DNA of 64,000 nucleotides from Bacteroidota bacterium (GTDB lineage: Bacteria; Bacteroidota; Bacteroidia; Chitinophagales; LD1). This document shows, in pieces, positions 41,417 through 63,052 of the stretch. The position numbers were made by a program, and so were the translations under genes. The DNA is taken from contig CANJZE010000003.1 in NCBI GenBank assembly GCA_947479455.1, forward strand, positions 146,956 to 210,955, read 5' to 3'. The notes under the pieces are model-generated. The model was given only the letters and a program-made list of their open reading frames with translations, did no database searches and had not been told where the DNA came from. Each line of letters begins with the position of its first letter. The stretch's first letter is position 1.

Positions 41417-44095
41417 CTAATGCTTCTCTCCTTCCAGCTTTCTTCTGTCGGCAGGAATTGAATTGCCGTATTTGCCATCAGCCAGTTTCACCTGACCCAT
41501 GTGTGGTCCGCCAATAACTACATCACCAATGCCGGTGAGTTCTTCAGGATTGTAGTGGTAAACATCCCAATCATTTGCCCAATGGAAAATTGATTTGCCC
41601 GTTACCTGATTAGCTGCTTTAGCTGCGGCCGGTTCCTTATCGGCTTTTATAGCGGCAGGTCCGGGTGCCTGAGGAAATCTTCCTTCGCCATAATTGGTCT
41701 TAGGTTTTGCAATTATTTCATAATCCAAAGTTCCTGAATGTTTGCCACCGTTTAATTCCATCAAATCAAAACCTTTCACGTTTCTGTTTTTTACCACTAC
41801 ACCATTGAATTCATACATATCAGTTGGAGTGCAGAAAACACGTAGCGGATTTTCGGTATTTACAAAAATAATATCGCTAAGTATAGGGTCTAAGTCAACA
41901 TGAGCAAAACCATTTTCAAGTTTCACGGTGCCATAATCGGTATACCAATATTCTGGTGATTCAGGCGCGGTGAGTGTAATACGACCATGATTTTCGGTAG
42001 GTATTATCTCACTTACGGAACCTGTGCCTATAATTTTTCGGTTTGTAGCTCCGTTCATTGCTACATAAGCCCATTGCGCATTTCCTTGAAAATATCCTCC
42101 GGCAGTAACGTTAAACGAAGTATTATAACCTCCTGCAGGGTCAAGACCAGTTCCAGGTCCAGTCGCAAAAGCCATTACCCCATTGGCATCTTCGGCATTA
42201 CCTGCAGCACCGGCATCAAATCTTCCGCCAGCGCACCAGCCTGGGTTTCCTCCAACTGCACGTGTATTATAGCCACGAAGTGCTACGTTAATTCCACCTA
42301 AAGTGGTACTAGTTACATTTAATTGATTGTAAGAAGTAGAAGGATTAAACACACCTGAATTATTATCTACATATGCATAGTTTGCCATCCACACGGTAGA
42401 GTAATCAATCAATGCTGCTACCGTTGCCGCACCGGTCGATTGGCCATAGAGACTCGCATAACCAGCGGCAGGGTTAGTAGAGTAAATTCCTGCACCTTGT
42501 AAAGTTTGAACCGGTGTGCCTAAAGTAATATTGACTTCGTAGCCCACATAAGCACCTACGTTAGTACTATGTCCCCAAATTGCATTTGCCAGTGGCCCGC
42601 TATTAACTTCAAGCGGAAGACTTGGTGCAGCGGTTCCAATACCAACATAACCATTGGTTTGCTTCACTCTCATTCTTTCAAGCTGATTAGTTCCAATGGT
42701 AAAATCTCGAGCATCTGTTGTGCCTATCCAGTTTTCGGCAGCGCCAATAACTGAAGTGCCGTATGTTGCAGGCACTGCAGGATTAGTGATAGCAGTATTA
42801 CCTTTAGTAAGCCATGCACCAATGGTTGTATTTAAATTTTGTGGAGCAGTGGTAGTTATGTTTAATGTGCCTGCATTATTAAACTCGAAATTGGTAATTG
42901 TCCAGTTAGGTCCGGTAACTCCAGTTACACCTGTAATTCCGGTTATTCCTTGCGCTCCGGCAATACCTGTAACCCCTGTAACTCCCTGAATGCCTTGCGC
43001 ACCAGTAGTTCCGGTTATTCCTTGAATGCCTTGTGCGCCTGTAAGGCCAATGGCTCCGGTAATACCTTGAATGCCGGTTACTCCTGTAACACCCTGTATA
43101 CCTTGCGCGCCTGTAACACCCTGTATGCCTTGTGCGCCTGTAGTTCCTGTTATTCCTTGAATGCCCTGCGCACCCGTTGCGCCCATAGTACCTGTAATAC
43201 CTTGAATACCTTGTGCCCCTGTTATACCTTGAATACCCTGCGCTCCAGTAATGCCTTGTATTCCTTGTATCCCCTGAATACCCTGTGCACCGGTATCACC
43301 GGTAACTCCCTGAATACCCTGCGCGCCTACAGCACCGGTATTTCCCTGCGCGCCTGTAGTTCCCGTAACCCCTTGTATTCCTTGCGCGCCTGTAACTCCT
43401 GCAATTCCCTGTATCCCCTGAATGCCTTGAATACCTTGTGCGCCTGTGGCTCCAGTATCGCCTGTAACTCCTTGAAGTCCGTTGGTACCATTCGTTCCGT
43501 TCGTGCCCGGAAGACCGTTTGTGCCGTTAGTGCCATTCGTTCCGTTTGTACCGGGAAGTCCATTAGTTCCTGGTACACCGGTAGCACCATCAATACCGTT
43601 CGTACCATTTGTACCATTGGTTCCGTTCGTACCGTTTGAACCCGGAAGTCCATTTGTCCCATTAGTTCCGGGTGCGCCTGTAGCTCCGTCTATACCATTG
43701 GTGCCATTCGTTCCATTGGTGCCGTTTGTACCATTAGCACCTGCCGCACCAGTAACTCCTTGCAATCCTGTAGGGCCTTGTGCTCCTGCTGCACCTGTAT
43801 TTCCTGTAGGTCCTATTGCCTGACAAAGCGAAGTCCATCCGTTAGTAGTAGTGAAATAGAAAAGACATTCCAGCGTAACATCGTAAACCAATAACCCATT
43901 TGCCGGTGAAGAAATAGCCATTCGCTGTGTAGTGGTCATTCGTGGTGCAATAAATCCTTTTGAAGTAGATTCCAATTGAAGAATGGAACTTGCATCGGGA
44001 TTAGTAATTCCGATACCTACATTGTTTTGTGCGGTTACTTTTTGTGTAAAGAATAAAACCGCAAATAAAGTTACGAGCGTAGAAATTTTCTTCAT
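41417..44095 (-). CDS. Collagen-like repeat surface protein
   Basis: An 892-residue exported protein. After the signal peptide (TLFAVLFFTQKVTAQ) comes a segment common in Bacteroidota cell-surface proteins (NVGIGITNPDASSILQLES, then GFIAPRMTTTQR). Residues about 95-396 are an essentially uninterrupted Gly-X-Y collagen-type tract, about 100 triplets, mostly GTN and GIQ/GVT/GAQ units. The C-terminal part resembles tail-fibre-like stalk domains with no T9SS tail. It should form trimeric stalks; the 9-nt repeat DNA makes length variation likely. Confidence 0.88.
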   Translation of the reverse strand: MKKISTLVTLFAVLFFTQKVTAQNNVGIGITNPDASSILQLESTSKGFIAPRMTTTQRMAISSPANGLLVYDVTLECLFYFTTTNGWTSLCQAIGPTGNTGAAGAQGPTGLQGVTGAAGANGTNGTNGTNGTNGIDGATGAPGTNGTNGLPGSNGTNGTNGTNGTNGIDGATGVPGTNGLPGTNGTNGTNGTNGLPGTNGTNGTNGLQGVTGDTGATGAQGIQGIQGIQGIAGVTGAQGIQGVTGTTGAQGNTGAVGAQGIQGVTGDTGAQGIQGIQGIQGITGAQGIQGITGAQGIQGITGTMGATGAQGIQGITGTTGAQGIQGVTGAQGIQGVTGVTGIQGITGAIGLTGAQGIQGITGTTGAQGIQGVTGVTGIAGAQGITGITGVTGVTGPNWTITNFEFNNAGTLNITTTAPQNLNTTIGAWLTKGNTAITNPAVPATYGTSVIGAAENWIGTTDARDFTIGTNQLERMRVKQTNGYVGIGTAAPSLPLEVNSGPLANAIWGHSTNVGAYVGYEVNITLGTPVQTLQGAGIYSTNPAAGYASLYGQSTGAATVAALIDYSTVWMANYAYVDNNSGVFNPSTSYNQLNVTSTTLGGINVALRGYNTRAVGGNPGWCAGGRFDAGAAGNAEDANGVMAFATGPGTGLDPAGGYNTSFNVTAGGYFQGNAQWAYVAMNGATNRKIIGTGSVSEIIPTENHGRITLTAPESPEYWYTDYGTVKLENGFAHVDLDPILSDIIFVNTENPLRVFCTPTDMYEFNGVVVKNRNVKGFDLMELNGGKHSGTLDYEIIAKPKTNYGEGRFPQAPGPAAIKADKEPAAAKAANQVTGKSIFHWANDWDVYHYNPEELTGIGDVVIGGPHMGQVKLADGKYGNSIPADRRKLEGEKH
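42905..43812. repeat. Tandem-repeat DNA of the collagen-like tract
   Basis: Degenerate 9-nt and 18-nt units encode Gly-X-Y triplets. The repeat is a coding microsatellite, not a CRISPR: there are no unique spacers. Confidence 0.85.
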
Positions 44096-52318: not shown

Positions 52319-53458
52319 ATGAAATGGACAGCCCAACCTATTATTCACAAAAACGAATCACGCATAGCTTTGCATTTTGAGTTTAGCAAAGATGCGAATA
52401 TGCGGGTGCGGAATTTGGCCGGTGTCAAGTGGAGCAACTCATTAAAAGCTTGGCACCTCCCGGATAACGAGGAGTATAGAAAACGGTTTAAACTAACACC
52501 TACTACTTTATTACCTGCGGTTAGCGGAATGATACAAAACCAAGAACCGCATCGCGTTCTTAAACCAGTTGAAAAAAAAATTGACCGAGGTCAACTTACG
52601 ACAGTTAGTATAAACAAAGTAGAAGAATTTAAACGCTGGTTGCGAAGTAGAAGGTACAGCGAAAACACCATAAAAACATATACCGAAGCGCTACTAACAT
52701 TTCTAAAATTTCACTATCAAAAACCAATTGCAGAAATCAACAATGACGATGTAATTGCCTTTAACAACGAATTTGTTGTGAAACATAATTTATCTGCCTC
52801 CTATCAAAATCAGGTTGTAAATGCCATTAAACTTTTTTTCAAAAAAATAGAAAACAGTGTGCTGAATATTGAATTGGTTCATCGGCCTAAAAAATACAAT
52901 CCTTTGCCTAAGGTACTAGCGCTAGAGGAAGTTGCCATGATTTTAAACGCTTTGGAAAACATTAAACACAAATGTATGCTCAGCCTGATTTATTCAGCCG
53001 GATTGCGCAGAAGTGAGTTACTTAGTATGAAAATAGGAAGCGTAAACAGTAAGCGAATGGAATTGTTTATTACGCATTCCAAAGGCAGAAAAGATAGAGT
53101 AGTGCCGTTGAGTGAAACGGTTTTAAAGTTGCTGCGCGAATATTATAAAACCTACAAACCCAAAGATTATCTTTTTGAAGGGCAGACAGGCGACCAATAC
53201 AACGAAAGAAGCCTTGCGCTAGTATTGAAGAATGCTTGCGATAAAGCAGGCATTAAGAAAGCGGTGAACTTGCATATGCTTCGACATAGTTACGCTACTC
53301 ACTTGTTAGAAACGGGTACAGATTTGCGTTATATACAAGAGTTACTCGGTCACAAAAGCAGTAGAACTACAGAAATTTATACGCACGTAAGTAATCGCTC
53401 AATTAATAAAATCAAGAGCCCTCTAGATAAACTGGACATAAAAATTAAAGGAGATTGA
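52319..53458 (+). CDS. Tyrosine recombinase, putative integrase of the cassette array
   Basis: A 379-residue site-specific recombinase from ATG 52319. Catalytic residues are visible: R230 (SAGLRRSE), K255/K258 (SKGRKDR), H319-x-x-R322 (HMLRHS), H345 (LLGH) and Y354 (EIYTHV). A SAM-like core-binding domain is at about 98-180. The extra N-terminal domain (1-75; FEFSKDANMRVRNLAGVKWS then LKAWHLP) recalls a HARP-like fold. The IntI-specific insert between boxes I and II is absent, so it is XerC/D-like. It is followed on the same strand, 82 nt after the stop, by the first cassette boundary. Function as the array integrase is inferred. Confidence 0.88.
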   Translation: MKWTAQPIIHKNESRIALHFEFSKDANMRVRNLAGVKWSNSLKAWHLPDNEEYRKRFKLTPTTLLPAVSGMIQNQEPHRVLKPVEKKIDRGQLTTVSINKVEEFKRWLRSRRYSENTIKTYTEALLTFLKFHYQKPIAEINNDDVIAFNNEFVVKHNLSASYQNQVVNAIKLFFKKIENSVLNIELVHRPKKYNPLPKVLALEEVAMILNALENIKHKCMLSLIYSAGLRRSELLSMKIGSVNSKRMELFITHSKGRKDRVVPLSETVLKLLREYYKTYKPKDYLFEGQTGDQYNERSLALVLKNACDKAGIKKAVNLHMLRHSYATHLLETGTDLRYIQELLGHKSSRTTEIYTHVSNRSINKIKSPLDKLDIKIKGD

Positions 53459-53511: not shown

Positions 53512-53540
53512 TAGGAGGTTTAAACTTCCTCTATAAGTAA

Positions 53541-53549
53541 GTTAGCGGT
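53541..53549 (+). other. attI-like recombination point
   Basis: GTTAGCGGT is the exact reverse complement of R'' of the first attC-like site (ACCGCTAAC, 54283-54291). It lacks the left half of an attC site. This is what an integron attachment site looks like after a cassette has inserted at G^TT. Confidence 0.75.
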
Positions 53550-53575
53550 CATTGTAAATTAAACATCACCTTAAA

Positions 53576-54274
53576 ATGAAAAGCAAAAAAACAATTGAAA
53601 TCTTAGTTATAGTAAATGCAGTAATATTTTGCTTAGCAAGTTGTAATAATAATGTAAAGACTAACGTAGTCAATTCTAAAAATGAAATGAATATTATGAC
53701 AGATGAAAACCTTTCAGAAATTACTATTGGAAAACAAATATGGTTGGGTAATAACTTAAATGTTATTGTATTTAAAAATGGAGACACAATCCCAGAGGCA
53801 AGGACAAATGAAGAGTGGCAAAAAGCTGGGAAGGAAGGGAAACCTGCTTGGTGTTTTTATAATAATGAAAAAGAAACCGCTAAACAATATGGTAAACATT
53901 ATAATTGGTTTGCAGTTAATGACCCAAGAGGTTTAGCACCGGATGGATGGTTAATTCCCTCAGATGAAGATTGGTCAACCTTAGAAGAATTTTTGGGAGG
54001 AGAAAAGATTGCTGGCACTAAAATTAAAAGTTCAAGCAATTGGGTTGAAAATAGAAATGGAACGAACGAAACAAAATTTACTGCTAATCCAAGCGGAGGA
54101 AGAAGTTATGATGGATTATTTGACGGTATTGGTTGGGGTGCTGGTTGGTGGTGCTCTTCAACCTACGATAATGAAAATGCACTATTACGTAGTGTAAGAT
54201 TTGACGACAATGAGATACACCGTGGTATAGTGAGTAAACAATCTGGAATGCCTGTAAGATGTATAAAAAAATAG
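53576..54274 (+). CDS. Cassette 1: FISUMP-domain lipoprotein
   Basis: A 232-residue lipoprotein (lipobox CLASC). The mature part is a Fibrobacter succinogenes major-paralogous domain: GKQIWLGNNLN, GKHYNWFAVNDPRGLAPDGWLIPSDEDW, WWCSSTYDN and SGMPVRCIK. Such domains occur in many secreted Bacteroidota proteins; their role is unclear. The gene starts 35 nt after the attI-like point and ends 9 nt before attC-like site 1, filling the cassette. Confidence 0.85.
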   Translation: MKSKKTIEILVIVNAVIFCLASCNNNVKTNVVNSKNEMNIMTDENLSEITIGKQIWLGNNLNVIVFKNGDTIPEARTNEEWQKAGKEGKPAWCFYNNEKETAKQYGKHYNWFAVNDPRGLAPDGWLIPSDEDWSTLEEFLGGEKIAGTKIKSSSNWVENRNGTNETKFTANPSGGRSYDGLFDGIGWGAGWWCSSTYDNENALLRSVRFDDNEIHRGIVSKQSGMPVRCIKK

Positions 54275-54282
54275 AACAACGA

Positions 54283-54418
54283 ACCGCTAACACGGGTTTG
54301 GCAAAAGTGGCGGTTCAGTTCTCCGCAGACACATTTGTGATTAATCAAAGCTTTGTTCTCCGCATCAACATTTGTGGTGGAAATCGCCACCTTCGCCAAG
54401 CCCGAAACCGTTAGCGGC
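54283..54418 (+). repeat. attC-like site 1
   Basis: 136 nt. R'' ACCGCTAAC, R' GTTAGCGGC at 54410. Inner stem CGGGTTTGGCAAAAGTGGCG pairs with the arm ending at 54404, with A facing AAACC as an asymmetric bulge. Loop motifs TTTGTG, TTTGTT and TTTGTG have their first G at 54337, 54355 and 54374. Confidence 0.85.
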
Positions 54419-54448
54419 AAATTTATAAACACTTCAAACAACAATAAA

Positions 54449-55228
54449 ATGATTGAGAAATTAATCAACCTACCGAGCCCTCTTCAAATTTTGATGGACC
54501 CAGCATCCATAATTGTGATAAGTATCTTTATCGTTCTTATGATTGCCGAAGAGTTATTTCCAGGCAGACCTTTACCAAAAATCAAACACTGGAAAATAAA
54601 AGGGATATTAGCATTTGTAATTTATTTTTTTCTTTCAACCTACCTGCCGATGTTTTGGAATGACACACTTGCGCAATACCAACTCATTGATATGTCATTC
54701 TTGGGTGATTTTGGAGGAGCATTTGTCGCATTATTGATTTATGAATTTGGGGTATACATCTGGCATCGATCAATGCATAAAAGTAATTTTCTATGGCGGA
54801 TATTTCATCAAATGCATCACAGTGCCGAACGTGTAGATACTTATGGTGCTTTCTTTTTTAGCCCAATGGACATGATAGGTTTCACACTCTTAACAAGCCT
54901 TGCATTGGTCGTAGCAGGCGGATTTACTGTTCAAGCAACAATTTATGCGATTTACGGAGCAACATTTCTGGCAGTAATTCAACATGCAAATATTAAGACA
55001 CCGCAATGGATGGGATATATATTTCAAAGACCCGAATCGCATTCTGTTCATCATGCAAAAGGTGTTCATGCATTCAACTATTCCGATCTTCCTCTTTTTG
55101 ATATTATTCTAGGAACTTTCAATAACCCAAAAGAATTTGCAAGTGAAACAGGCTTTTATAAGGGAGCATCTACACGAATTGTGGAAATGATGATGTTTAA
55201 AGATATAAATAATGATAGTAAAACATAG
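54449..55228 (+). CDS. Cassette 2: fatty acid hydroxylase / sterol desaturase family membrane enzyme
   Basis: A 259-residue membrane protein with the three di-iron histidine clusters H106xxxH110 (HRSMH), H120xxH123H124 (HQMHH) and H198xxH201H202 (HSVHH). Several hydrophobic helices surround them. The family hydroxylates or desaturates lipids using O2. The frame is open from 54353, but those 32 extra codons lie inside attC-like site 1, so ATG 54449 (MIEKLINLPS) is the start. Confidence 0.9.
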   Translation: MIEKLINLPSPLQILMDPASIIVISIFIVLMIAEELFPGRPLPKIKHWKIKGILAFVIYFFLSTYLPMFWNDTLAQYQLIDMSFLGDFGGAFVALLIYEFGVYIWHRSMHKSNFLWRIFHQMHHSAERVDTYGAFFFSPMDMIGFTLLTSLALVVAGGFTVQATIYAIYGATFLAVIQHANIKTPQWMGYIFQRPESHSVHHAKGVHAFNYSDLPLFDIILGTFNNPKEFASETGFYKGASTRIVEMMMFKDINNDSKT

Positions 55229-55247
55229 CAGGGAAACAAGTAAATCA

Positions 55248-55383
55248 GCCGCTAACACGGGTTTGGCAAAAGTGGCGGTTCAGTGCCCCGCAGACACATT
55301 TGTGATTGATCAAAGTTTGGTTATCCGCATCAACATTTGTAGTGAAAATCGCCACCTTCGCCAAGCCCGAAACCGTTAGCTGC
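55248..55383 (+). repeat. attC-like site 2
   Basis: 136 nt. R'' GCCGCTAAC, R' GTTAGCTGC at 55375. Nearly identical to site 1 in both arms and loop. R' is a mismatch to its own R'' but an exact complement of R'' of site 3. Confidence 0.85.
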
Positions 55384-55404
55384 AACCTTGACAGACAACA
55401 TATA

Positions 55405-56889
55405 ATGAAAGAAACAATGAGAAAAAGACCAGTATTTAGACCGACAAGAAATCTACTAATAATATTGGGCTTTCTAATTTCAGTAAATAATACCCAAGCA
55501 CAAGCCATTTGGGACAACACATCATTTGTTCATCGCAACGGACAAGAAATACATAATGGACAAAACAATGCCATCAATCTTGATGGAGTAAATATTGGTT
55601 CATGGTTGATGTGGGAAGGTTTGATGTGGGGCGGTGGATTAATTTCTGAAAAGGATATTACCAATAAAATGACATCAGTTATAGGTCCTGTTGCATTCAA
55701 TAATTTCAGAGATTCAGTTTACAAAAACTACATTACTCGAGCAGACATTCAAAGAATTTCAGACGAATGTTATAATGTTGTTCGCATTCCTTTTAATCAT
55801 AATTTATTAGAAGATGATGCAAATCCTTTTGTTTACAAACCTGAAGGATGGGTAATTCTTGACAGCGCTTTGAAATGGTGCGAGGATTATAATGTTTATG
55901 CGGTTTTAGATATGCATGCTGCACCGGGTGGTCAGGCAACACATTTTATAGCAGACCCGGATTCAATTGATTTATGGAACTCACCCGTGAATAAAAACAG
56001 AACGATTCAACTCTGGAAGGCAATTGCAAGCAGATATCAAAACAGAGGAATTGTTGCCGCTTACGATTTATTAAACGAACCAAATATTTGGTGGTGGCCC
56101 GATTTAGTTAATTTATATGATAATATAATTGACACCATTCGAACGGTTGACAACAACCATATGATAATGCTTGAAGGAAATAATTACGCTCAGGACTTCT
56201 CAATGTTTACATCTTTACCTGATCCAAACATCTGTTTCCAATTTCATTATTACACCTTCTTTTTCAGTGCTCCTAATATTCCTGCCTGGACTGCACTTTC
56301 CAACACTTTAAATGTTCCAATTTGGTGTGGCGAATGGGGTGAAGATACGTTAGGTGGAATGCAGAATAAATTAACTAACATTATAAGGAATCCTGCCTAT
56401 AAAATTAGTGGACAAGCATTCTGGACATGGAAAACTGTAACAGTAGGCTTTCAGAATCCTCATAGTCTTAACGTAAACAATCCTACCGACTGGAACAATA
56501 CAATGTTGTGGGTAACTTATAATTCACCGATAGTAACTGCCTTGGAAATGCAAAACGGCATTGATAGTTTTATTGTCAACATGAAATTGCAAAATTGTGT
56601 TGTAGACACTGGTGTTTTTAATATGTTAAACTTGTGTTCAGTTACAGGCATTCAGAACATCGAAGAATTAAAATATTTAAATGTTTATCCAAACCCATTT
56701 ACTTCCTCAATCAACATAGAGGGCAAATTCGAAAACGAATATTATGAACTATTAAATTCAACAGGACAAATTATTTGGACAGGCCAACAAATCAACAATC
56801 AAGATTTTTCTTCACTGATAGACGGTTTGTATTTTTTGAGAATATATAATGGTAATTCTACACAGACGACAAAACTTATTAAGAATTAA
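55405..56889 (+). CDS. Cassette 3: secreted GH5-type glycoside hydrolase with T9SS tail
   Basis: A 494-residue secreted protein (signal LLIILGFLISVNNTQAQA). The catalytic domain is GH5/cellulase-like: GVNIGSWLMWEG, VVRIPFNHNLLED, LDMHAAPGGQATH, the acid/base Glu in YDLLNEPN and the nucleophile Glu in WCGEWGED. The C-terminal 80 residues (YLNVYPNPFTSSINIEG to TTKLIKN) are a type-A T9SS sorting domain. The frame opens inside attC-like site 2, so ATG 55405 is chosen over upstream Met. Likely a cell-surface beta-glucan-type hydrolase. Confidence 0.9.
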   Translation: MKETMRKRPVFRPTRNLLIILGFLISVNNTQAQAIWDNTSFVHRNGQEIHNGQNNAINLDGVNIGSWLMWEGLMWGGGLISEKDITNKMTSVIGPVAFNNFRDSVYKNYITRADIQRISDECYNVVRIPFNHNLLEDDANPFVYKPEGWVILDSALKWCEDYNVYAVLDMHAAPGGQATHFIADPDSIDLWNSPVNKNRTIQLWKAIASRYQNRGIVAAYDLLNEPNIWWWPDLVNLYDNIIDTIRTVDNNHMIMLEGNNYAQDFSMFTSLPDPNICFQFHYYTFFFSAPNIPAWTALSNTLNVPIWCGEWGEDTLGGMQNKLTNIIRNPAYKISGQAFWTWKTVTVGFQNPHSLNVNNPTDWNNTMLWVTYNSPIVTALEMQNGIDSFIVNMKLQNCVVDTGVFNMLNLCSVTGIQNIEELKYLNVYPNPFTSSINIEGKFENEYYELLNSTGQIIWTGQQINNQDFSSLIDGLYFLRIYNGNSTQTTKLIKN

Positions 56890-56912
56890 AATCAATGACC
56901 GAAAGAAAGGCA

Positions 56913-57048
56913 GCAGCTAACAGCACCTACAAGAAATTGGCGGTTCAGTGGTTAAATGAAGCTTTGTGCTTCGTATCAAGTTCAGTGGTGGCAGACAGTT
57001 TAGTGCTTCGTTATCGCCAACTTCTTGTAGCTGCAAACCGTTAGCGGC
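56913..57048 (+). repeat. attC-like site 3
   Basis: 136 nt. R'' GCAGCTAAC, R' GTTAGCGGC at 57040. The inner stem GCACCTACAAGAAATTGGCG has a sequence different from sites 1-2 but is paired in the same positions, i.e. compensatory change. Confidence 0.85.
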
Positions 57049-57311
57049 AACCTTTGACGCAAATTTTTGACAAGGTTGTGTAGGGTAGTCGCTTAAAGAC
57101 AAAAGACAAATACAAGGGCGAAGCCCATTGGCTATGCTTCAGCAAAATAAAAGAGATGATGCTCGTCTATTTTTAAACTTGAATCATCCCTTTTATTTTG
57201 CGCTGACGCACAAACAGCCGAACAGCCAGTGCAGCAACTATTAAATTTGAATTGTTACTTTGTTTTCGTCTTTATATTCACTTAAAAAATAAATCACTTT
57301 AAAAACAAAGC
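57049..57311 (+). other. Non-coding start of cassette 4 with a long hairpin
   Basis: No ORF seen. AGCAAAATAAAAGAGATGAT (57141-57160) pairs with ATCATCCCTTTTATTTTGCGCT (57183-57204) with one mismatch and one bulge. It may be a terminator for upstream cassettes or part of the nuclease leader. Confidence 0.5.
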
Positions 57312-58358
57312 ATGAAGTATTATAAGGAAGGTAAAAACTGGTGGAGAGATAATCGTTATCATTTTATGAGCAAAATGAATTTGGAAAGTGGCATTACTGA
57401 ATTTGGTAGTGCCAACTCAAAAGGAAGTCCATATTATCATATCCTTTCACCAGCTGACCAGAAGAATAAGTTGCACAACTTTATTGGCGAGCAAGAAATT
57501 TATAATCATGTAATAGAACGCTTCAAAACAAAAGCAGGTGATTTAAAAAGAGTGCTCACCAACACAGTAGCTTCACAACCGTGTTGCTTTAATTTATTTA
57601 CACCGCTTAGAAATAGATTGCCTTTAGCAAGCAAACTATTTAGCCATCTTCTTCAAAAAGAAATTACGGTGTCAGAATTGATAATAGAGTTTACACCAGG
57701 ACAGTATAACGGTTCTGACGAAACTATTGGCGACCAATCCGCACAAGGTGGGACAGATTCTGATGTTGCAGTCTTCTATACTACTGCTGACAGTAAGAAA
57801 GGTGTTTTGCTTATAGAGTTCAAGTATATCGAGTATGAATTTTCAGTTTGCAGTTCATACAAAAACAAAAATATTTCAGACATTTGTGACACTCCTGACT
57901 TCTATAAGAAACTTATAGCTCCTAATATTAACTCGTCAGCAAAACAATTTGATTGCGGTTACTTAAAGTATCAGAATTGGCGGCTTCTTGAAGACAGTGC
58001 AGCTTTCAATGCCGACAAAATCAAGACAGCAAATAGATGTCCGTTCAGATTTTCTCTTAATCAATTATGGCGAAACATGCTGCTTGCTGAGAAGGTTGCA
58101 AAAGCAAGACACCTTGACGAGTTTGGTTTTTGGGTAATTAACCCCAAAGAAAATTCATTCGCATTGCAAAATTCAGGTGAGAATGTGAAAGATGAGTTTC
58201 TTAATATCCTGTCAGACAAAGGCAAATCTTTATTCAAGGTCTTAGAGTTAGACAATGATGTTGTAAAACCATTAGAGCAACTTTCAACTGAAGAATGGAC
58301 AGATGAATGGCTCCGCAAATTTCGTCAACGATACTTAACCAATACAGATTTTCATTGA
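57312..58358 (+). CDS. Cassette 4: putative PD-(D/E)XK nuclease (PGN_0703-like)
   Basis: A 348-residue cytoplasmic protein. The core GGTDSDVAVF (D149/D151), then LLIEFKYIEYEF (E169-x-K171), fits a PD-(D/E)XK active site; IGEQEIYNHV could supply the upstream Glu. Overall it resembles restriction-endonuclease-like PGN_0703 proteins known from Bacteroidota. No methyltransferase is adjacent, so a standard restriction-modification role is unproven; defence is inference. Confidence 0.6.
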   Translation: MKYYKEGKNWWRDNRYHFMSKMNLESGITEFGSANSKGSPYYHILSPADQKNKLHNFIGEQEIYNHVIERFKTKAGDLKRVLTNTVASQPCCFNLFTPLRNRLPLASKLFSHLLQKEITVSELIIEFTPGQYNGSDETIGDQSAQGGTDSDVAVFYTTADSKKGVLLIEFKYIEYEFSVCSSYKNKNISDICDTPDFYKKLIAPNINSSAKQFDCGYLKYQNWRLLEDSAAFNADKIKTANRCPFRFSLNQLWRNMLLAEKVAKARHLDEFGFWVINPKENSFALQNSGENVKDEFLNILSDKGKSLFKVLELDNDVVKPLEQLSTEEWTDEWLRKFRQRYLTNTDFH

Positions 58359-58365
58359 CTCTGCA

Positions 58366-58417
58366 AAATACATTTATGCAAATGCACTTCCGTTGTGTTT
58401 TGCTGTATTTATCTTTC
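58366..58417 (+). repeat. 52-nt dispersed repeat, copy A (inside cassette 4)
   Basis: AAATACATTTATGCAAATGC through TTTATCTTTC matches copy B (60430-60481) at about 42 of 52 positions by eye. It lies between the nuclease and nfeD genes. Confidence 0.55.
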
Positions 58418-58475
58418 GTAAGAAAATTATTAGAACCATTTTATATCTTGGCTACATAAAAAAGAAGTAAAAAAT

Positions 58476-58925
58476 ATGGACTTTTCAGTTTGGCATTTTT
58501 GGATTATTGCTGCGGTTCTTCTTTTTATTGTAGAAATTTTCACACCTACATTTTTAACTGCCTCACTTGCTATCGGATGTATTGCTTCGGGAATTGTTTC
58601 CTATTTCGGTTTCGATATAAAAATACAGCTAATCGCATTTTCCATTGGAACTCTTACAAGCTTTTTTGGCGTAAGACCTTTTATGTTAAAGTTTGCTCAC
58701 AAAAAAAGTGGCAACGTAAAAACTAATGTTGATGCTTTAGTTGGCAAAGTTGGTAGGGTGGACGTTACAATAGACCACTCTCAAAATCAAGGTAGAGTAA
58801 TAGTTGAAGGGGACGACTGGAAAGCGGAAACTGAAAACAATGAAGTGATTCGCGCAGGAGAAAAGGTTGAAGTATTAAAAGTAAATAGCACAACTTTAAT
58901 TGTAAAACCAATAACTAAAAATTAA
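58476..58925 (+). CDS. Cassette 4: NfeD-like membrane protein
   Basis: A 149-residue protein with two or three hydrophobic segments (HFWIIAAVLLFIVEIFTPTF and ALAIGCIASGIVSYF) and a C-terminal OB-fold-like domain (ALVGKVGRVDVTID, then GRVIVEGDDWKAET), the NfeDC architecture. It ends 4 nt before an SPFH gene; the NfeD-SPFH pair is a classic operon involved in membrane microdomains. Confidence 0.9.
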   Translation: MDFSVWHFWIIAAVLLFIVEIFTPTFLTASLAIGCIASGIVSYFGFDIKIQLIAFSIGTLTSFFGVRPFMLKFAHKKSGNVKTNVDALVGKVGRVDVTIDHSQNQGRVIVEGDDWKAETENNEVIRAGEKVEVLKVNSTTLIVKPITKN

Positions 58926-58929
58926 AAAT

Positions 58930-59985
58930 ATGGGCTTCTTAATCGTCTTAGGACTAATTGCAATTTTTGTAATTGTCTTTGCTGCATTTGGATTTCAGAT
59001 TGTTCAACAATCAGAAACAATCGTAATTGAACGGCTCGGCAAATACAGTCGCACGTTGCCAACCGGTATAAATATTATCTGGCCCATTGTTGATAGACCG
59101 AGAGAAATAATTTGGCGATTTGTTAAGCAAGACATTAACCTTGATGGAAGAAGTTCTATTTCTTTTAGGGCAGTGACAAAAATAGATTTAAGAGAAACTG
59201 TTTATGAGTTTCCTAAACAGGATGTTATTACAAAAGATAATGTTGGAACAGAAATTAACGCAATTATTTATTTCCAAATTACTGACCCAGTTAAAGCGGT
59301 ATATGAAATTTCAAATCTTCCCGATGCGATTGAAAAGCTAACTCAAACGACATTGAGAAATGTGATTGGCGAGTTGGATTTAGACCAAACTCTTACATCA
59401 AGGGATACAATTAACGGTAAGCTAAGGATAGTTTTAGATGAAGCAGGACACAAGTGGGGCGTTAAGGTAAATAGAGTTGAATTGCAGGATATAAATCCTC
59501 CCCAAGAAATCAGAGCTGCGATGGAAAAACAAATGAAAGCAGAAAGAGATAAACGAGCAAAAATTTTAGAGGCAGAAGGAGACAAGCAATCTCAAATTTT
59601 ACAATCAGAAGGATTGAGGCAAGCTAAAATAAATAGTGCCGAAGGGGAAAAGCAATATCAAATTTTGCAATCAGAAGCTTTAAGGCAATCTAAAATAAAT
59701 AATGCCGAAGGGGATAAACAATCACAAATATTAAAAGCAGAGGGGGAAGCACAAGCAAGGATAAGAACATCAGAGGGGGAAGCGGAAGCAATCCAAAAAA
59801 TTACTCAAGCAATTTCAGCAACCAAAAGCGACCCTGTAAATTACCTTGTTGCAATCCGCTACATTGATAAGTTAGGAGAAATGGTAAGCGGTAAAGACAA
59901 CAAAGTTATTTATATGCCTTATGAAGCCACTGGGATTTTAAGTTCAATAGGTGGCATTAAGGACTTACTTACTGCACAAAAATAA
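58930..59985 (+). CDS. Cassette 4: SPFH/stomatin-type protein
   Basis: A 351-residue membrane-anchored protein (LGLIAIFVIVFAAFGF). The SPFH domain is clear: VQQSETIVIERLGKYSRTLP, GINIIWPIVD, FPKQDVITKDNV, VELQDINPP and EIRAAMEKQMKAERDKRA. The following coiled coil holds three 22-residue repeats (residues 216-281; AEGDKQSQILQSEGLRQAKI type), i.e. 66-nt tandem DNA repeats at 59575-59772. Related to QmcA/YbbK; a partner of NfeD. Confidence 0.93.
   Translation: MGFLIVLGLIAIFVIVFAAFGFQIVQQSETIVIERLGKYSRTLPTGINIIWPIVDRPREIIWRFVKQDINLDGRSSISFRAVTKIDLRETVYEFPKQDVITKDNVGTEINAIIYFQITDPVKAVYEISNLPDAIEKLTQTTLRNVIGELDLDQTLTSRDTINGKLRIVLDEAGHKWGVKVNRVELQDINPPQEIRAAMEKQMKAERDKRAKILEAEGDKQSQILQSEGLRQAKINSAEGEKQYQILQSEALRQSKINNAEGDKQSQILKAEGEAQARIRTSEGEAEAIQKITQAISATKSDPVNYLVAIRYIDKLGEMVSGKDNKVIYMPYEATGILSSIGGIKDLLTAQK
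59575..59772 (+). repeat. Three 66-bp tandem repeats in the SPFH coiled coil
   Basis: Units 59575-59640, 59641-59706 and 59707-59772 all start GAAGG(A/G)GA(C/A/T)AA and encode 22-residue heptad-like units. They are in frame, so unit gain or loss changes coiled-coil length only. Confidence 0.85.
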
Positions 59986-60022
59986 ATCCCATAAACAGCA
60001 TCCGTTTACAGGACTTTCTTGC

Positions 60023-60355
60023 TTAGAATCTTCCACGAGTTTCAAATTCATCAACTTCTTTTTTGATTCGCTCAAACTCTTGCTCTTTCTGGTAAACAAA
60101 ATGTTTGATCCGTAGCAATAACTCATCCTCAGGCAATGCTTCAAAATCCTGTATGAACAATAACCTATTCCGAAAAAGCCAATATACATTCGGGCCTTCA
60201 GGGTTATGTATCGAAGAAGGTGTAGGTTTTTTCTTTTGCTGTTCAAATTCATCACATTCCAGTGCAATTGCTACAGACCTTGCATTGCTTCCACTATCAA
60301 TTCTAATCTCTATTGACCCTTCATCTGAAATCCTTCCATCTTCTTTTATTTTCAT
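60023..60355 (-). CDS. Cassette 4: antisense hypothetical protein
   Basis: A 110-residue acidic protein on the strand opposite to all other cassette genes. It has VYWLFRNRLLFIQDFEALPEDELLLRIKHFV followed by a charged helix (EQEFERIKKEVDEF). Codon use and helix pattern look real, not a shadow. No family recognised. It ends 38 nt from the SPFH stop (convergent). Confidence 0.6.
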   Translation of the reverse strand: MKIKEDGRISDEGSIEIRIDSGSNARSVAIALECDEFEQQKKKPTPSSIHNPEGPNVYWLFRNRLLFIQDFEALPEDELLLRIKHFVYQKEQEFERIKKEVDEFETRGRF

Positions 60356-60429
60356 AGCAAATATTTAGTCACTAAGTTTTTCTTTAAAATGAAAATACAT
60401 TTTATTTTCTGTTACAGACAACTCCAGCC

Positions 60430-60540
60430 AAATACATCCACGCAAATGCGCTCCCATTTTGTTTTGCTCTTTTTATTTTTCAATTGGATTTAAAACAAAA
60501 AGAGAGCGCATTGCCACGCAGGGGTTTCGCCTTTCATTTG
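60430..60540 (+). repeat. Dispersed repeat copy B with hairpin
   Basis: Copy B of the 52-nt repeat is at 60430-60481. Its ATGCGCTC/TTTTGTTTT part can pair with AAAACAAAA/GAGCGCAT at about 60493-60511. The remaining gap to attC-like site 4 has no ORF. Confidence 0.5.
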
Positions 60541-60592
60541 ACAGTTACGCGCTTCACTGACAAACAAGAAAGTTTCTCTTTTATTTTTTGCG

Positions 60593-60614
60593 TGATGTCC
60601 ACTGGTGGACATCA
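60593..60614. promoter_or_regulatory. Perfect 10-bp inverted repeat before attC-like site 4
   Basis: TGATGTCCAC-TG-GTGGACATCA, a perfect palindrome with a 2-nt centre, ends 8 nt before R'' of site 4. An operator or stem-loop is possible; function unknown. Confidence 0.45.
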
Positions 60615-60622
60615 GTAAGGCA

Positions 60623-60758
60623 GCCGCTAACAAGGCGTTTGCGTAATGCGGGGCGAAGTCTTTAAGCGTAGTTTTGTTTTTCTTTTTTAGTTTAGTTTTC
60701 GGTGGACAAGTAGTGCTTCTTAAACCCGCACTACGCAAACCCCCGAAACGTTACCTGC
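60623..60758 (+). repeat. attC-like site 4
   Basis: 136 nt. R'' GCCGCTAAC, R' GTTACCTGC at 60750. Inner stem GTTTGCGTAATGCGGG pairs with CCCGCACTACGCAAAC. The loop sequence is unrelated to sites 1-3 yet the total length is identical. Confidence 0.82.
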
Positions 60759-60830
60759 AAGCGTAGTAGACGACTCGACAACAATTAAACCTATGAAGAT
60801 TTGGAGCATCATACATTAAAATTAGAAAAC

Positions 60831-62201
60831 ATGATGAAAAATAAAATACTTACTACGATTTCGTTATTGCTTTTTGGAATAACGATTTATGCTCAACAAG
60901 AAAACCAATCTTGCGGAACTTCAGTACCTAGTGAAATGTGGGAAAATGAGTTTCAAAAATTAATTTCGGAATACAAAACTAACCCAAAAAGCCAAAAGCA
61001 ATCTTCAACAGTTTATACTATTCCAATTATATTTCATGTAATACATAGCGGACAGCCTATTGGTAATTTTCCTAATATTTCACAAGGTCAAATAAATTCT
61101 CAAATAACTGTTTTAAATCAAGACTTTAGTGGAAATGGATTTAATTCTTCCAATTATCCTTCTAATGCTTTTGTAAATTGGGTAATCACGCAATCATTAC
61201 CGTCTGCTAATACTGATAGTAACGGTAGGGTAAAAATAGCGGACGTTGGAATTCAATTTTGTTTAGCAACAAAAGATACTAACGGTAATTTATTACCCGA
61301 ACCAGGAATCAATAGAATTAATTACCTGTCTTTGAATTTGCCAAATCCGAGTAGTTATTCTACTCAAGCTACCATGAAGTCCTATCTTGACAATATTCTT
61401 AAGCCTCAGACCATTTGGGACGTAACTAAATATCTCAATGTTTGGATTACAGATAAAAACAGTGCTCTAAACTATACCGGAGTATCATCGGTCCCTCCTT
61501 TAAGTGGCTTATTGGGCGTGCCTAATAATTCGACCGATACAACCGATGGTATTTGGTGTTTTGCGAAAGTAATTGGTTCTAACAATTTATTTCCTACTGG
61601 TATTTATGGTTCCCCATTGGTTGAGGGCAGAACCCTTACACACGAAGTTGGTCATTATTTAGGACTCAGGCATATTTGGGGTGATGGGTCTTGTGCTACT
61701 GACTATTGTGATGATACGCCACCAGCAGCATCAGAAAATACTGGGGTACCATCATCTTATCCATTAAATGTTGGTTCGTGTAGTAGTCCGTCAAACTCGC
61801 CAGATGGAGAAATGTTTATGAATTTTATGGATTATCCTCATGACCCTTACAAGTATATGTTTACTGCTGACCAAGCTACAAGAATGCAGACTGCCATGCT
61901 AAACAGTCCATACAGAAATCAATTAGGAACTCATGGTTTGTGTTCGGCTCCTCTTGGACTAAATAATTTAAATTTAAATGATAATATTTCAATTTATCCA
62001 AATCCAGCTAAGACAGAACTAAATATAAATGTTTCCCAAAACGACATAAATGAACTTTCAATAAGCAACTTATTTGGACAAGTTCTAATCATATCACAAA
62101 ATCAAAACCGTATTGACATTTCTAATTTAACCAATGGCATATATATTTTAGCAATTACACAAGGACAAAATAAATACACGAAAAAATTCATCAAAGAATG
62201 A
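60831..62201 (+). CDS. Cassette 5: secreted M43 (cytophagalysin/pappalysin) metalloprotease with T9SS tail
   Basis: A 456-residue secreted protease from ATG 60831 (signal ILTTISLLLFGITIYAQ). The zinc motif HEVGHYLGLRHIWGD (HExxHxxGxxHxxGD) and Met-turn-like MNFMDYPHD define family M43. YTIPIIFHVIHSG and QITVLNQDFSG near the start are typical. The last 75 residues (ISIYPNPAKTELNINVS to YTKKFIKE) are a type-A T9SS sorting domain, so it is exported across the outer membrane. Confidence 0.93.
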   Translation: MMKNKILTTISLLLFGITIYAQQENQSCGTSVPSEMWENEFQKLISEYKTNPKSQKQSSTVYTIPIIFHVIHSGQPIGNFPNISQGQINSQITVLNQDFSGNGFNSSNYPSNAFVNWVITQSLPSANTDSNGRVKIADVGIQFCLATKDTNGNLLPEPGINRINYLSLNLPNPSSYSTQATMKSYLDNILKPQTIWDVTKYLNVWITDKNSALNYTGVSSVPPLSGLLGVPNNSTDTTDGIWCFAKVIGSNNLFPTGIYGSPLVEGRTLTHEVGHYLGLRHIWGDGSCATDYCDDTPPAASENTGVPSSYPLNVGSCSSPSNSPDGEMFMNFMDYPHDPYKYMFTADQATRMQTAMLNSPYRNQLGTHGLCSAPLGLNNLNLNDNISIYPNPAKTELNINVSQNDINELSISNLFGQVLIISQNQNRIDISNLTNGIYILAITQGQNKYTKKFIKE

Positions 62202-62221
62202 TAACAACGGAGAAAACGCCA

Positions 62222-62357
62222 GCAGGTAACAGCACATTGGCAATAGGCGGGGTTTCGTCTCCGCTTGACAGTTTTGTGGTAACCGAAAGTTTTGTGCTCC
62301 GAATAAAAATTTGTGGTGAAAAGCCCGCCCATCGCCAATCTGAAAAACGTTATAGCC
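62222..62357 (+). repeat. attC-like site 5
   Basis: 136 nt. R'' GCAGGTAAC, R' GTTATAGCC at 62349: the two do not pair beyond AAC/GTT. R'' instead pairs perfectly with R' of site 4, and R' with R'' of site 6. Inner stem ATTGGCAATAGGCGGG. Loop TTTGTG motifs have their first G at 62276, 62294 and 62313. Confidence 0.85.
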
Positions 62358-62395
62358 AATGATAAAAAGACGACAACGAACAAAATAAATTGACA

Positions 62396-62896
62396 ATGGA
62401 AGAAAGACCAACAATAAAATTAGAATTCACAACAGCCGACAAAACATTTGAAATAATTGGTTGGCTTTTAATTATTTCTGTTTGGGGCTTAACAATTACA
62501 AACTATGCAAACCTGCCTGAAACTATTCCGACACATTATAATGGAGCAGGACAAGCGGACGGATTTGGCGGAAAGGCGACTATTTTGACTTTGCCACTAA
62601 TAGCAACAGTTCTATTTGTTGGACTGACAATCCTAAATAAGTTTCCTCACATTTTTAATTATCCGACCAACATAACACAAGACAACGCATTAAGGCAATA
62701 TACAAATGCAACAAGAATGATTAGATATTTGAAACTCATTATTGTTGTCATTTTCGGACTAATTGCATTCAAGACAATTCAAAATGCAAACGGACAAGCG
62801 GACGGACTTGGAATTTGGTTTTTACCAATGACATTAGGACTAATTTTCATTCCTTTGATATATTTTGTAGTAAAATCATTTAAAGCGACAAAATAA
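62396..62896 (+). CDS. Cassette 6: DUF1648 membrane protein
   Basis: A 166-residue protein from ATG 62396 with four hydrophobic helices. The DUF1648 signature LPETIPTHYNGAGQADGFGGK lies between helices 1 and 2, as in SdpI-related immunity-type membrane proteins. The family suggests a role in resistance to a membrane-acting peptide, but this is inference. The gene fills the cassette between sites 5 and 6. Confidence 0.8.
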   Translation: MEERPTIKLEFTTADKTFEIIGWLLIISVWGLTITNYANLPETIPTHYNGAGQADGFGGKATILTLPLIATVLFVGLTILNKFPHIFNYPTNITQDNALRQYTNATRMIRYLKLIIVVIFGLIAFKTIQNANGQADGLGIWFLPMTLGLIFIPLIYFVVKSFKATK

Positions 62897-62916
62897 TGAC
62901 GAAGAAAGAAAGCACT

Positions 62917-63052
62917 GGCTATAACAGCCGTTTTGCAAAAGCGGGGGTTTCGTGCTTCTATGAAAGTGAAGTGCAAAATTCAAGCTTTGTGCATCTAATG
63001 AAGTTTAGTGCTAAAAATCCCCGCCTTCGCAAAGCGGCAAACCGTTAGCGGC
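62917..63052 (+). repeat. attC-like site 6
   Basis: 136 nt. R'' GGCTATAAC, R' GTTAGCGGC at 63044. Inner stem GCCGTTTTGCAAAAGCGGGG pairs with the arm starting at 63019 (CCCCGCCTTCGC). Predicts that R'' of the next site, beyond the window, is GCCGCTAAC. Confidence 0.85.

Follow-up and report, generated by a model that had tools for sequence, protein, structure and literature searches.

A tyrosine recombinase without the I2 helix and with a HARP-like N-terminal module is the probable integrase of an integron-like array in Bacteroidota

We analyzed a 64,000-nucleotide stretch of DNA (the window; positions 146956-210955 of contig C3 in source genome G000) and conclude that its tyrosine recombinase, P0001, is probably the integrase of an integron-like array, recombining a folded strand of its sites, with a HARP-like N-terminal module as the part that most likely reads the fold. 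The layout itself is plain in the DNA: an attI-like site, long imperfect hairpins that all share an AAC/GTT core, a rule by which each cassette pairs with an arm of its own site, and recurrence of this arrangement across Bacteroidota. On balance, we expect the P0001 system to work like an integron while standing outside the IntI family. In IntI, the I2 helix is reported to be necessary for cassette capture, to confer single-strand recombination, and to occur in no other protein (PMC7790495), and also to dock extrahelical bases (PMC7790495, PMC4792948). Integrons may therefore be possible without this supposedly essential part.

The recombinase is encoded by an open reading frame with an ATG start, and the following parts can be distinguished.

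52319..53458, + strand: tyrosine recombinase P0001, 379 aa, the putative I2-less integrase of the array (ORF, domain, and structure searches)
52319..52492, + strand: HARP-like N-terminal module, residues 1-58, predicted bbabba (profile, Foldseek, structure prediction)
52622..52855, + strand: core-binding SAM-like domain (Phage_int_SAM_4), residues 102-179 (domain search)
52913..53392, + strand: catalytic domain (Phage_integrase), residues 199-358 (domain search and alignment)
53147..53197, + strand: short link, residues 277-293, at the place of the IntI additional domain with the I2 helix (phmmer and alignment)

Translation likely begins at the ATG at 52319, given that homologues begin at M-K-W; an alternative upstream TTG start would give a protein of 411 aa. 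The full tyrosine-recombinase set of catalytic residues (R230, K255, H319, R322, H345, and Y354) is present and is invariant across 39 homologues, and the alignment confirms the catalytic assignments that had been made from the sequence for K255, H319, and R322. The absence of the IntI patch, which had likewise been proposed from the sequence, is confirmed by two comparisons. In a phmmer match, chain residues 182-241 of the Vibrio cholerae IntI structure (2a3v) face only residues 277-293 of P0001, and in a common alignment, the stretch between P0001 positions 262 and 296 holds 77-78 residues in five true IntI proteins but 34-36 in P0001 and its module-bearing family (40 in one member alone, L061). 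As aligned, P0001 is without the ~42-residue IntI insert that contains I2. Its match to the IntI model TIGR02249 is broken at the insert and reaches 204 bits, under the NCBIfam cut-off of 265, and the XerA-type/integron integrase-like model NF040815 is matched with 222.6 bits over residues 102-364 (cut-off 220). XerA-type enzymes share the core-binding and catalytic domains and the same insert length, but they have no module, and no arrays of the present type were found around the relatives sampled. An SPLD tail, considered as an IntI-like trait, was dropped because it is common to XerA-type enzymes too. A query of P0001 against viral contigs returned no relatives.

The array follows the recombinase gene on the same strand.

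53525..53550, + strand: attI-like core, CGnATATAnAnnA followed by GTT, with the crossover deduced to lie inside GTT 53541-53543
53542..54410, + strand: cassette 1, with a Fib_succ_major ORF at 53576-54274
54283..54418, + strand: attC-like site 1, 136 nt
54411..55375, + strand: cassette 2, fatty acid hydroxylase-like ORF
55248..55383, + strand: attC-like site 2, 136 nt
55376..57040, + strand: cassette 3, GH5 cellulase-like protein with a secretion tail
56913..57048, + strand: attC-like site 3, 136 nt
57041..60750, + strand: cassette 4, or a fused cassette, with PD-(D/E)XK nuclease, NfeD, SPFH, and an antisense ORF
60623..60758, + strand: attC-like site 4, 136 nt
60751..62349, + strand: cassette 5, M43 peptidase with a secretion tail
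62222..62357, + strand: attC-like site 5, 136 nt
62350..63044, + strand: cassette 6, DUF1648 protein
62917..63052, + strand: attC-like site 6

Nine sites follow P0001, six of them in the window and three beyond it (L007), and the contig ends within the array. Most sites are 134-138 nt long (136 nt being typical), and one is 167 nt. The bottom strand folds into an outer arm of 5-9 bp, a one-sided 4-nt T-rich bulge, a stem of 16-19 bp in which a G mismatch is conserved, and a ~70-nt loop. In a set of 56 sites drawn from 20 loci, AAC-G and TGTT vary little or not at all, and strong covariation (values below) supports the hairpins as real. An Rfam search returned no relevant family. Cassette 4 carries two 55-nt repeats that are 80% alike (window 58363-58417 and 60427-60481). 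This large cassette may have arisen by fusion of two cassettes with loss of a site.

To compare each cassette with its own site, we took the cassette's first bases, which lie immediately after the break between G and TT in the previous site, and examined their pairing with the left arm of the site that the cassette carries. All nine cassettes of the window array pair in this manner over 6-7 nt (permutation p 9e-5). Among 52 cassettes from the arrays tested, own pairing amounts to 5.7 nt, compared with 1.25 nt for same-site pairing and 1.5 nt for other sites (p 1e-9). Movement as one-site circles requires that the 5′ end of a cassette pair with its own left arm and not with the arm it faces; the complementarity found therefore indicates that each cassette was once a one-site circle, joined between G and TT. 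The first cassette has the GTT at 53541 as its partner, which places the attI-like point there, 83 nt past the P0001 stop. This predicted pairing is an integron signature and shows, at the level of sequence, exchange at a single point in the R arm, as in attC recombination.

Judged by its architecture, the array has the parts of an integron, namely a putative attI entry point, cassettes ended by AAC/GTT palindromes, and a cassette 5′ end that completes the cassette's own site. As in canonical integrons (IntI, attI, attC), the attI lies beside the integrase gene, the sites form a folded array with an AAC/GTT exchange point, and each cassette carries its own site. Unlike IntI, P0001 lacks I2, scores under the IntI cut-off, and has an extra N-terminal module. 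Its gene is co-directional with the cassettes, which differs from most integrons, although two loci of the family (L029 and L081) have the divergent layout. The present sites also have an almost constant length and show much stronger sequence conservation than those of canonical integrons.

The N terminus had been described as a separate module, and structure prediction supports this description: AlphaFold gives residues 1-56 as a separate bbabba domain (pLDDT ~88-94), after which residues 65-87 form a linker predicted with low confidence. A resemblance to the HARP motif of SMARCAL1-like proteins had also been noted for this region, which contains GVKWSNSLKAWHLP at residues 35-48, and here the outcome depends on whether P0001 or its family is examined. 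Neither the full-length protein nor residues 1-94 alone matched HARP, or anything convincing in the N-terminal part, in Pfam, and the link emerged only with the modules of the family. Among 38 family modules searched against Pfam, 15 weakly match DUF5710 and four match HARP. One member (L070) reaches 29.5 bits against HARP (PF07443; gathering cut-off 25), and most members score under that cut-off. A HARP profile run through the phylum recovered a module recombinase (L122), a recombinase carrying the motif as three tandem repeats (L126), and a helicase in which HARP precedes SNF2 (L123); in the reverse search, the module profile found this same helicase (E 3.5e-4 per genome). The SMARCAL1 HARP structure (4o66) is the second-ranked PDB match by profile, in register (E 0.86), and the third by Foldseek against the whole PDB (E 1.4), each weak alone. 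A second look with VIA-align listed only unrelated folds with low Z values and did not list 4o66. Taking the reciprocal profile matches and the PDB hits together, we consider it quite likely that the module family is kin to HARP. The modules resemble HARP and DUF5710 (PF18974) in the motif GxxWsxxxKxWxxP and in the order of strands and helices, but here the module is fused to a recombinase.

The module also shows far lower conservation than the core, with a mean identity of 25% compared with 46%. The recombinase genes of L025 (7379-8452) and L026 (2078-3151) depart from this pattern, in that their modules are 67-82% identical to those of P0001, L021, and L022, their cores are 41-46% identical, and the site type is unchanged. 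Here a module has been exchanged between distant cores within the genus of the window, a single event that is suggestive for the mechanism proposed below. Elsewhere in the family, the recombinase L126 (G093:C4) has three HARP-like repeats in front, and four others (L078, L080, L082, and L084) have very long N-terminal parts.

HARP is established as a domain for structure-specific DNA binding. Because P0001 has no I2 helix, its module is the likeliest extra fold-reading part, and the retention of bulge and mismatch in arrays without I2 is a reason for suspecting that such a part exists. In the mechanism that we propose, P0001 would recombine one folded strand of its sites with attI, or site with site, and the module would read the folded hairpin by recognizing its one-sided T-rich bulge, its conserved G mismatch, or the junction of stem and loop. 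By reading or stabilizing the fold, the module may also position the protomers and select the strand. Several observations weigh against this proposal. The HARP structure match is weak (E 1.4) and P0001 itself has no HARP match, the link between module and sites is indirect, and recombinases of the rAID systems considered below, with a degenerate module that has no Pfam match, still obey the cassette rule on short sites. In addition, no site was found in the flanking sequence examined at six module loci (L027, L028, L030, L031, L049, and L162), and sites occur in 66 genomes that lack both a module match and IntI.

The main rival is that the module acts at attI as an arm-type domain, binding a double-stranded accessory sequence (a TATA-rich core and an upstream inverted repeat) and setting direction or regulation, so that reading of the folded sites is left to the core-binding and catalytic domains. 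N-terminal arm-binding domains occur in many tyrosine recombinases. The attI core is conserved: candidates at other loci mostly lie ~35-150 nt past the recombinase stop and share the core CGnATATAnAnnA followed by GTT. At a subset of loci, an inverted repeat is centred 16-19 nt upstream of the crossover, with a mean pairing of 7.0 of 9 positions compared with 5.96 in random windows (0 of 400 as high). However, the repeat is missing at some loci, Pfam detects no known arm-binding domain in the module, and kinship with HARP indicates binding of structured DNA. We therefore regard this role as a real but rather unlikely alternative to reading of the fold.

A smaller chance attaches to the possibility that the module, like the HARP of SMARCAL1, is an annealing aid that promotes extrusion of the hairpin (~24 bp stem and ~70-nt loop) from duplex or single-stranded DNA and does not read the fold. 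Besides the HARP kinship itself, this would fit the shorter sites of rAID arrays, in which the module of the recombinase is degenerate. Nevertheless, the HARP of SMARCAL1 acts with an ATPase motor, which is absent from P0001.

Comparably improbable is that the sites are recombined as double-stranded palindromes in the manner of Xer, with no single-strand step and hence no need for I2 at any time. P0001 is indeed nearest to XerA-type enzymes (NF040815, 222.6 bits against 220) and lacks I2. Over 24 pairs, 95% of the cells in the 56 sites are paired, and covariation is 0.61 compared with 0.16 in shuffles, values that fit a folded strand and a double-stranded palindrome equally, since compensatory changes are expected for duplex inverted repeats too. 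What argues against the palindrome is that the 24 pairs persist despite sequence drift, as do a T-rich bulge of 4 nt on one side and a conserved mismatch, and that under the own-arm rule exchange is confined to one point in the R arm, as in attC recombination.

Recombinases with the module occur throughout Bacteroidota. A model built from the 56 sites matches 151 of 296 Bacteroidota genomes sampled, and the module profile matches 61 genomes, 58 of which have sites (Fisher p 1e-16). Of the 35 module loci whose flanks are informative, we count about 29 with arrays. An ordinary arm domain present in many recombinases without arrays, the finding that would have counted against the original prediction, is thus mostly not what these counts reveal. 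In a model-free hairpin scan, the module family and its nearest relatives gave 51 hits in 281 kb downstream and five in 459 kb upstream. The same scan gave no hits in 409 kb around remoter relatives, nearly all from outside Bacteroidota; because it was also blank around five true IntI genes, this zero is a control for the present site type and not for attC generally. Canonical IntI scores over its cut-off in 84 of the 296 genomes (phylum as defined by GTDB), so a recombinase that is a mere bystander while IntI moves the cassettes in trans was entertained, but this is very improbable and was rejected as largely refuted, since no IntI in the window's own genome exceeds the cut-off and IntI presence has no association with sites (odds 0.63, p 0.09). 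The sites track the module recombinase and not IntI, and therefore belong to the module recombinases. Note that 84 genomes with IntI, in the GTDB sense of the phylum, is more than the literature on Bacteroidetes suggests; IntegronFinder 2.0 found integrons nearly absent from Bacteroidetes proper (PMC9024848).

The closest known systems are the rAIDs of gut Bacteroidales, whose defining parts are a tyrosine recombinase, immunity genes that share one orientation, and intergenic motifs (PMC12247911). The rAID recombinase is 46% identical to P0001 over residues 108-368, lacks the I2 insert, and, in the alignment used for the tree, was not one of the proteins that have a long insert of the IntI type. 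Both systems have a co-oriented cassette array after the recombinase gene with a conserved intergenic motif, and Bacteroides ovatus cassettes also pair with the arm of their own site (5.2 versus 1.6 nt, p 5e-5). On plasmid NZ_CP081918.1 of B. ovatus (L161, 8810-16400), the first bases of each immunity cassette are complementary to the left arm of the short intergenic hairpin that it carries, as in integron cassettes. In contrast to the present array, rAID sites are short (intergenic gaps of ~40-80 nt) and are not matched by the 136-nt model, the cassettes are short immunity genes whereas those of the window are varied (enzymes, membrane proteins, and a nuclease), and the N-terminal module is degenerate where that of P0001 is full. 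Our literature search, which covered papers available without subscription, found no account of the present array system.

The original prediction held that the module, if it senses folded single-stranded sites, would be an independent solution to attC recognition, and this part is not supported. IntI forms one clade in our tree and the module recombinases group elsewhere, but an AU test does not reject a single clade of the two (p 0.58). We therefore dropped the claim of phylogenetic independence from IntI. Only tentatively, then, do we suggest a second class of integron in which a HARP-like domain does the job of I2, with capture of folded single strands having evolved more than once.

If I2-less enzymes run such arrays across the phylum, the integron lifestyle can dispense with I2, and the arrays would serve as a natural point of comparison for asking how single-strand recombination originated. 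They would also constitute a large cassette reservoir, with sites in about half of the Bacteroidota genomes sampled, that lies beyond detection tools based on IntI, and would bring the rAID immunity arrays of gut bacteria under the same principle as integrons.

Several further observations were made. The window's genome has a second, decayed copy of the system (L008; G000:C30, 86-7352 and 8028-8372), in which four same-strand sites adjoin a recombinase relative that is broken and shows 52% identity over residues 263-378. Further sites of the same family lie at C5:103686, C20:85556, C20:88212, C22:65439, and C28:39071, on contigs where no recombinase relative was found. Site length varies at two other loci, with ~71-nt sites beside one 135-nt site in Rufibacter (L064, 11812-13738) and a class of 168-171 nt at L057. 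In the window itself, 42919-43814 is a long tract of 9-nt periodic repeats whose minus strand encodes a probable collagen-like Gly-X-Y protein. Finally, the Chryseobacterium plasmid NZ_CP041688.1 carries the array system (L160, 15001-30389), so that arrays can reside on plasmids, and this array also contains a group II intron and insertion sequences.
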